NCBI GenBank assembly: GCA_014360825.1
Contig: JACIWT010000021.1
Location: forward strand, 1-33,682
Direction: 5' to 3'
DNA: 33,682 nt
Source of the DNA: Chloroflexota bacterium
Lineage (GTDB): Bacteria > Chloroflexota > Anaerolineae > UBA2200 > JACIWT01
This document shows, in pieces, positions 32,316 through 33,682 of the stretch. Both the position numbers and the translations under genes were made by a program. The number at the start of each line of letters is the position of its first letter. Position 1 is the stretch's first letter. The notes under the pieces are model-generated. The model did no database searches. It had not been told where the DNA came from and was given only the letters and a program-made list of their open reading frames with translations.

Positions 32316-33110
32316 CTATCTCGCCGCCTTTCGGCACAACGTTACATCACCGGCCAGCAACCGCACTGTATTGCCCTCGGGCGTGAGGATAAGAAGTGCG
32401 CCGGTTTCATCCACGTCCCGCGCCAGGCCCACGATGGTACCCTCGGGCGTCATCGCTACGATCTGCTGGCCCAATGTGCTCAGCCGCGAGGCCCACTCGC
32501 GATGAGGCAAGTGGCCGTGCTGGAGGGATAGGTAGTGCCGCTCAACGTGCGCGAGGAGGCTGAGCAAAAGTTCGCCGCGATTCACTGGGCGTCCGGCCGC
32601 TTCGCTGACACTGGTAGTGTCTGGCGGGAGGCCAGGCACCTCAGCGGGCCGCAGGTTCACGTTGAGCCCCAATCCCACGATGACGTATTCGATACGCTCT
32701 CCCCGCACGGCCAATTCGGTCAGGATGCCCCCGGCCTTGCGCTCGTTCAGCAGGATGTCGTTGGGCCATTTGAGGCTGCCGACGAGACCAGCCGTCTCCT
32801 CAAGGGCGTCGAGGACAGCCAGGCCACAGATCATCGTCAGTGCGCCAACGTGGGTGGGCGGGAGATTGGGATAGAAGATCAACGAGAGGAGCAGCGACGT
32901 GCCTGCCGGGGCCAGCCAACGCCGCCCCAGACGGCCCTTGCCTGCAGTTTGCTCTTCGGCGATGACCAGCGTGCCCTCCGGTGCACCCTGGCCCGCCAGT
33001 TGTTTGGCCACTTCGTTGGTCGAGCCGGTCTGGGGCAAATAGATAAAGTTGCGGCCCACGGTGGCCGTTGTCAGTCGAGCCTTGATTCCGTCCACGCTCA
33101 GATCGGACAA
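32316..33110 (-). CDS. birA: biotin-[acetyl-CoA carboxylase] ligase
   Basis: The roughly 264-residue enzyme activates biotin with ATP and attaches it to a carrier lysine. GKGRLGRRW is the biotinyl-AMP loop; SLKWPNDILLNERKAGGIL and VIVGLGLNVN are also conserved, and a C-terminal SH3-like domain follows. No N-terminal winged helix is present, so it is a non-regulatory (class I) form. GTG33116 abuts the AGGAGG, whereas TTG33110 is five bases beyond it and is the better start. Confidence 0.93.
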   Translation of the reverse strand: MSDLSVDGIKARLTTATVGRNFIYLPQTGSTNEVAKQLAGQGAPEGTLVIAEEQTAGKGRLGRRWLAPAGTSLLLSLIFYPNLPPTHVGALTMICGLAVLDALEETAGLVGSLKWPNDILLNERKAGGILTELAVRGERIEYVIVGLGLNVNLRPAEVPGLPPDTTSVSEAAGRPVNRGELLLSLLAHVERHYLSLQHGHLPHREWASRLSTLGQQIVAMTPEGTIVGLARDVDETGALLILTPEGNTVRLLAGDVTLCRKAAR

Positions 33111-33169
33111 GGGCACCTCCTAGACGGAGATTAGCGCAGAAGATGGGAGAGGTCAAAATTCGAATACGT

Positions 33170-33198
33170 TTGCCCGAGGCGACCTGCGACGCTATAAT
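33170..33198 (+). promoter_or_regulatory. promoter of the secreted-protein gene
   Basis: TTGCCC (33170-33175) and TATAAT (33193-33198) are separated by 17 bases; transcription would begin near 33205, about 93 bases before ATG33298. Confidence 0.65.
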
Positions 33199-33297
33199 TG
33201 AGAGTGCCGGGAGAAATCAGCGAATGGCGGCTACATCTGCGAAATCCCGCTGGGAACTGGGCAGGAGTCGTTAGCAGGTGGTCAGCAGAGGTGGGAT

Positions 33298-33682
33298 ATG
33301 GATTATGCGCTGAGAGTGAAGATGACCTTGGTTACCCTCACCTTGGTGGCTGCGCTCGCCGCGCTGGGCGCTGTGCCTGCCTCGGCTGGCCAGTCGGGGG
33401 AGCAATCTCCAGATTGCGATCGGCGCATCGCCGTCTGGAGACGGCTCCCACTTGTGAATACCCGCCACCGAATGGAATTCGGTGGCTACGCCCGGGATGT
33501 AGTAGGGGCGACCGGCCAGTCGCCCTTACTGGAAATCGCATTTCCGGGCGGTGTGGGTAGCGAAATCCCGACCCACGCCGGTCGCCGGTGGATAAATCCA
33601 CCGGCTGGTCTTGTCCAGTCCCGCTGGGACTGGGCCGCGATGAGCCGCCGTACCCATTCGCAGGGGCGCCGCCCCCCCCCCC
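33298..33682 (+). CDS. partial secreted protein gene, frame runs into palindromes and off the edge
   Basis: The frame is open from ATG33298 to the window edge (128 codons). GAGGTGG is placed upstream, and a good promoter lies at 33170-33198. Residues 1-30 are a textbook signal peptide: basic start, TLVTLTLVAALAALGAV core, and PASA before the predicted cut. After a short acidic stretch (GQSGEQSPDCD) the frame is made by the palindrome array, giving Arg/Trp/Pro/Gly-rich sequence that looks unlike a normal domain. Either the elements sit in-frame inside a longer gene or the gene was broken by them. The 11-base C run at the end suggests a contig end. Confidence 0.55.
   Translation, partial: MDYALRVKMTLVTLTLVAALAALGAVPASAGQSGEQSPDCDRRIAVWRRLPLVNTRHRMEFGGYARDVVGATGQSPLLEIAFPGGVGSEIPTHAGRRWINPPAGLVQSRWDWAAMSRRTHSQGRRPPP
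33406..33633. repeat. array of eight hairpin palindromes
   Basis: In 228 bases there are: TCTCCAGA/TCTGGAGA (33406-33441), GCCGTCT/AGACGGC (33430-33445), GCCACCGAAT/ATTCGGTGGC (33464-33486), AGTAGGGGCGAC/GTCGCCCTTACT (33501-33530), GGAAAT/ATTTCC (33531-33545), GTGGGT/ACCCAC (33553-33576), GCCGGTGGAT/ATCCACCGGC (33584-33605) and CCAGTCCC/GGGACTGG (33615-33633). All but the fourth (one G-T wobble) are perfect. The core of the last, TCCCGCTGGGA, also occurs upstream at about 33244-33254. Confidence 0.85.

Follow-up and report, generated by a model that had tools for sequence, protein, structure and literature searches.

Can DNA palindromes that are read in frame encode most of a secreted protein's N-terminal region, or does such a sequence merely mark the place where a gene has been destroyed? 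This question is posed by the 3' end of the window (the whole stretch of 33,682 nucleotides that was analysed), which coincides with the end of contig C21 in a Chloroflexota genome of 2.89 Mb and 64 contigs. A first-pass annotation described a promoter, a ribosome site and a signal peptide opening a frame that crossed eight palindromes in 228 bases and was never closed, and offered two interpretations, namely, insertion of palindromes in frame, as in Rickettsia, or a gene destroyed at the contig end. The features in question are the following:

33170..33198 (+), promoter TTGCCC-17-TATAAT, found by sequence scan
33287..33294 (+), Shine-Dalgarno-like AGAGGTGG
33298..33682 (+), open frame from the ATG at 33298, truncated on the 3' side by the end of the contig
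33298..33387 (+), signal peptide MDYALRVKMTLVTLTLVAALAALGAVPASA, ending in ASA, with the likely cleavage before GQS; from the sequence and a predicted helix
33398..33449 (+), H1, outer stem GGGAGC/GCTCCC enclosing two inner hairpins (33402-33417 and 33430-33445)
33464..33486 (+), H2, palindrome GCCACCGAATGGAATTCGGTGGC
33501..33530 (+), H3, GTAG-tagged palindrome
33531..33545 (+), H4, palindrome GGAAATCGCATTTCC
33549..33580 (+), H5, imperfect palindrome, 80% complementary
33584..33605 (+), H6, palindrome GCCGGTGGATAAATCCACCGGC
33615..33633 (+), H7, palindrome CCAGTCCCGCTGGGACTGG
33663..33682 (+), tail at the contig end, which ends in 11 C, departs from all paralogues and is probably unreliable sequence

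The start signals are all in place, and the frame indeed stays open from the ATG to position 33682. A longer form of the promoter (ACCTG..TATAAT) has four matches in the 33 sequences scanned, in C21, C20, C23 and C16, all of them loci of the gene family described below. Upstream of the palindrome gene, and divergent from it, lies an open reading frame (32316-33116, reverse strand) that we take to encode a biotin-protein ligase-like protein, given its SLKWPNDILL motif. The palindrome-encoded stretch runs QSWEQSPDCDQSIAVWRRLPLVNTRHRMEFGGYARDVGATG...WMNPPAGLVQSRWDWAAM; SPLLEIAFPGGVGSEIPTHAGR is a stretch within the encoded protein, and LPLVNTR would be a tryptic peptide of it. In the structure prediction for the window protein, the signal helix (residues 1-20) has a pLDDT of 87-88 and everything outside it falls below 50; this model, like that of the G082-type protein discussed below (mean pLDDT 36.9), is uninformative because a single sequence served as the input.

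Between 33398 and 33633, there are seven perfect inverted repeats that do not overlap, with arms of 6 or more and loops of up to 8 nucleotides, whereas 1000 dinucleotide shuffles give a mean of 0.78 and a maximum of 5; if arms of at least 7 are required, the count is six versus 0.19. Including the imperfect H5 and the outer H1 stem brings the total to eight or nine, so that the original description of eight palindromes was fair. The GTAG tag is present on H3 only and is missing from the other six palindromes, and a comparison with Rfam gave only two sub-threshold matches that we take to be chance. The missing stop codon, by contrast, turns out to be a weak argument even though the observation itself stands, because about 10% of the shuffles of the block are free of stops in the frame of the gene; H1 is nearly devoid of stops in the same frame even at intergenic sites. 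The case therefore rests on the paralogues.

The block, about 270 bp in length, is repeated at at least nine loci of the genome (query 33390-33672; 40 of the 66 candidates scored): in C21 itself, C19, C51, C10, C23 and C20 (89-93% identity), in C41 (81%) and, as partial or gapped copies, in C16 (the first 111 bases) and C24 (pieces interrupted by an N gap). Five of the copies (C10, C41, C16, C21 and C24) are truncated by contig ends, and C8, C26, C32 and the start of C23 contain 3' sections of the gene without the 5' section; some of these fragments may be pieces of one gene. Contig C21 probably stops where it does on account of the repeat. In all six copies that cross the block (C19, C51, C20, C23, C10 and C41), the frame is open from the signal peptide through the block and into the sequence APTGYISYTIR; this count excludes the window and C16, which run off their contigs, and C24 with its N gap. 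The genes in C19, C51, C20 and C23 are complete and encode proteins of 512-530 amino acids, and those in C10 and C41 reach the same domain in frame ahead of the contig end. The order within the protein is signal peptide, palindrome-encoded stretch of about 90 residues, domain A (which starts with APTGYISYTIR), a linker of the PTPERPTP type and the C-terminal part. Because all six crossing copies run into a conserved domain and four of them are complete, this family represents an intact kind of gene. Thus, the contig end merely hides the remainder of the gene rather than marking its destruction; a stop just past the window, sought in the paralogues, is found in none of the six continuing copies; the copies of the block are not all intergenic; and the notion of in-frame palindromes in a Chloroflexota gene for a secreted protein is borne out.

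Could translation begin downstream of the palindromes? The block offers no conserved start codon (in C20, the ATG of DWAAM reads ATA), and the sole signal peptide lies upstream of the block, so that an exported protein would have to be translated through it. The other two frames of the block contain 2-5 (frame 2) and 1-2 (frame 3) stops per copy in the six copies. The agreement among the copies is not independent, given their shared ancestry.

Comparison of paralogue pairs in 60-nt windows reveals a mosaic with sharp steps in identity. C19 and C23 are 88-95% identical across the block and 36-58% identical at +480 to +900; for C19 and C20, identity drops from 92% to 43% between +900 and +1020, and for C19 and C51, from 95% to 55% at +1140. 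From +60 to +360, the compared pairs are 78-100% identical, with lower values for the pairs that include C41, whereas most parts of the gene outside the block show 30-60% identity between copies. Ahead of the start codon, identity is at background level for most pairs, but the last 60 nt are shared in C23/C10 and in C51/C20. The signal peptides are more divergent than the block (pS 0.39 vs 0.17). From these comparisons, the 5' module appears to have spread, or to have been homogenised, across loci that are old or foreign in their other parts. Upstream of the genes in C20 and C23, there are short open reading frames that combine a signal peptide with a palindrome (H1) and soon reach a stop (L082, L081 (-), L083 (-) and L090), and additional copies of H1 lie upstream in C24 and C10; these are tandem duplications of the 5' module.

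Within the block, insertions and deletions of +3 (window), +15, +66 and -21 (C41) nucleotides all keep the frame, and entire palindromes have come and gone. C41 lacks H2 and carries a further palindrome inside H1, flanked by the near-direct repeats CGTGTCGCCGTC and CGTATCGCCGTC (read by eye); C24 contains the same kind of extra palindrome at the same site of H1; and in C16, a different pair of palindromes follows H2 in place of H3. Both C41 and C16 remain in frame over all the available sequence.

The host gene is gene 1 of a three-gene cassette that is found at several loci. Gene 2 encodes a membrane anchor with a small domain, and gene 3 a Cys-rich exported protein with a weak match to Big_2 and matches to two PHROGs of unknown function. 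Gene 1 has no match in Pfam, NCBIfam or PHROGs, nor do P0001, P0003 and P0004 have a match in Pfam; its signal peptides and Pro/Thr linkers suggest a role at the surface or in the envelope. At several loci (L093:2761-5692, L094, L095, L096, L097 and L098), the cassette has AT-rich, variable 3' parts, and it is present as a single copy in G082, a genome of the same order; the cassette looks like a set of horizontally acquired surface proteins. In G082, the gene 1 homologue begins with a lipoprotein-like N-terminus and has no palindrome block; it differs across the N-terminal half as well as by the missing block, and is closely similar to the genes of the window genome in the linker region. None of the six further genomes of the order has the block (one shows a 23-nt match at H2), and the idea of a block family shared across the Chloroflexota was dropped for this reason. 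Relatives of gene 1 were detected in 2 of 396 genomes of the class, in 2 of 7 genomes of the order and in 1 of 400 genomes of the phylum (G000, the window's own), with G082 absent among the matches listed in the last search. Phages, plasmids and viral contigs yielded no relative. The searches brought up no orthologue that has domain A yet lacks the block, and hence no true empty site.

Where, then, could the palindromes have come from? A sample of 433 kb was used, comprising the window and 20 stretches that are not a random sample because they were picked partly for having matches in the block search. All 12 dispersed relatives of the palindromes in this sample are intergenic (H1 4/4, H2 2/2, H3 1/1, H6 2/2 and H7 3/3), and H4 and H5 have none there. 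In the whole genome, H6 occurs at two places outside the family, H4 at one such place and at two more immediately 5' of family genes, and H2, when up to two mismatches are allowed, at one such place and in one short open reading frame upstream of the C20 gene. Altogether, the sample contains 168 palindromes, 7.8 per 20 kb versus 2.2 in a first-order control built from 5 of the 21 sequences; home-made gene calls place 99 of them between genes, 53 within genes and 16 partially so, and many of the 53 have arms of 9 and are likely due to chance. Parts of C4, C18 and C22 (L105, L117 and L118) hold 25-27 palindromes per 20 kb, compared to 1-10 in the remaining stretches.

Other genes of this genome also carry palindromes in frame. 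Two RAYT-type genes match NF047646 with E-values of 8e-19 and 3e-17, under the curated cut-off, and there are four Y1_Tnp matches, two of them above the cut-off. In each of the two NF047646-matching genes (L105:11783-12370 (-) and L106:17492-18223 (-)), a GTAG-type palindrome lies in frame directly after the HIHG motif, so that the gene of a RAYT-like transposase hosts the type of repeat that the transposase may move. In a GH57 enzyme (L105:9450-9475), the in-frame palindrome coincides with an insertion of 7 residues when the protein is aligned to a relative of known structure; the palindrome of an iron-dependent alcohol dehydrogenase (L118:17742-17767) falls at a gapped place of the alignment, a less clear case. 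Together, these genes indicate that the genome tolerates palindromes in frame. The protein encoded at L118:5799-6311 (-), next to putative capsid- and portal-like open reading frames, opens with several VGAGLVPAQD-type repeats, a repeat-derived peptide in frame, and similar GAGLV-type arrays are present in L105 and L106.

The scenario that we favour, with a probability of about three in four, is that palindromes gathered behind a signal peptide and are translated as a spacer, and that the resulting 5' module then spread between paralogues. Dispersed palindromes of the REP type would have accumulated directly behind the signal-peptide cleavage site, a position where extra residues would be largely harmless, in a phase that lacks stop codons. 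The block would be translated as an Arg/Trp-rich spacer of about 85-95 residues, probably disordered, between the signal peptide and the mature domain; the module of signal peptide and palindromes would spread among paralogous loci via recombination or gene conversion, and the 3' parts would diverge or be swapped. A REP-associated tyrosine transposase is a candidate agent of insertion, at least for the GTAG-tagged H3. A further proposal, which we consider unlikely albeit worth keeping in view, is that the block serves as a recombination seam, a break-prone conserved stretch where signal peptides and divergent secreted domains are exchanged between loci; were this true, dispersed palindromes would have become a joint for protein shuffling, translated as a linker.

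How does this scenario fare against simpler accounts? The reading of the locus as a wreck, in which chance intergenic palindromes follow a stray signal-peptide frame and no product of such length is made, draws on the one shuffle in ten that is open by chance, on the short, soon stopped H1 frames that do exist upstream of the C20 and C23 genes, and on the weakness of selection in the block. It is hard to reconcile with six out of six copies that continue in frame into a constrained domain (pN/pS of 0.235 for domain A in C19, C51 and C20) and with indels that preserve the frame, so that the paralogues largely refute it and we hold it to be very improbable. Selection on the peptide itself is the crux of another proposal, under which the block encodes a functional peptide, selected as protein, and is palindromic by happenstance. 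In the block, the pooled pN/pS is 0.505 (seven copies) and is below 1 in 21 of 21 pairs; in six copies, 73 derived states include no stops versus 3.3 expected (P 0.03) and 27 synonymous ones versus 20.8 expected (P 0.07). The distribution of variable columns over codon positions (23/18/28) is not significant (P 0.34), however, the gain, loss and replacement of palindromes between copies alter the peptide grossly, and relatives of the palindromes are found outside genes. Purifying selection on the block peptide is accordingly weak or unproven, and this proposal seems to us as improbable as the wreck.

Somewhat less improbable, but still quite unlikely, is that the main role of the palindromes is structural, at the level of RNA or DNA, such as translation pausing right after the signal peptide or message stabilisation, the frame being open only for the passage of the ribosome. 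The predicted RNA fold of 33390-33660 (-153 kcal/mol) is 41 lower than the shuffle mean of -112 (z -7.7), and stems contain 25 of the 73 derived states versus 33.7 expected (P 0.026; six copies). Yet, the scarcity of changes in stems would fit a recent origin equally well, only one compensatory pair change was seen among the copies counted, and no given hairpin can be needed because H2 is missing in C41 and H3 is replaced in C16. We read the pattern of substitutions as a sign that the peptide is weakly constrained and that the block is young, with palindromes still close to perfect.

If palindromes are indeed gathered and translated in this manner, in-frame palindrome insertion, best known from the obligate intracellular Rickettsia, would extend to an uncultured environmental lineage of Chloroflexota, with several different palindromes encoding the bulk of the N-terminal region in a presumably exported, multi-copy protein. 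Paralogues in which palindromes have been gained, lost and replaced would be a natural experiment on selfish DNA turning into protein; in practical terms, palindrome blocks break assemblies and mislead gene finders.

No description of such an arrangement of palindromes behind a signal peptide was found in the titles and abstract openings of the open-licence literature. The Rickettsia palindromic elements (RPEs) are insertions that lie in frame within ORFs that probably make functional protein (PMC10969869, PMC3733652; Ogata et al. 2000/2002), and here too the frame continues on both sides of the element in six of six copies. RPEs, however, are described as single elements of about 150 bp inserted independently in many unrelated genes, whereas the block is a composite of seven different short palindromes in one gene family, and relatives of H1, H2, H3, H6 and H7 in the 433-kb sample lie between genes rather than in several unrelated ones. 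Thus, the likeness to Rickettsia holds for the reading in frame and, because palindromes from outside the block do lie in frame in further genes, for this genome in general, but does not extend to the individual palindromes of the block. Intragenic REP clusters encode 43-82 amino acids in Thauera and R. conorii, and GTAG repeats associated with RAYTs have been described, including in the phylum Chloroflexi (PMC3733652). The window genome shares with the GTAG/CGTC clusters the location of REPs within ORFs and, judging by the NF047646 matches under the curated cut-off, the RAYT genes, but the block is heterogeneous, carries GTAG on H3 only, and resides behind a signal peptide at at least nine loci. 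PARCELs, palindromic amphipathic coding repeats that spread within genomes, likewise encode parts of surface proteins but are tandem 25-residue repeats of one domain (PMC2996958), and the gene 1 protein has neither a tandem repeat of this DUF285 type nor a match in Pfam. Mosaics of the BIME/REPIN type are also clusters of several short palindromes in genomes with RAYT genes, but are extragenic (PMC3116915, PMC2817692), whereas the block lies in a reading frame. By analogy, then, the block would work like an RPE or an intragenic REP cluster, albeit one that is composite, placed behind a signal peptide and copied together with a single gene family.
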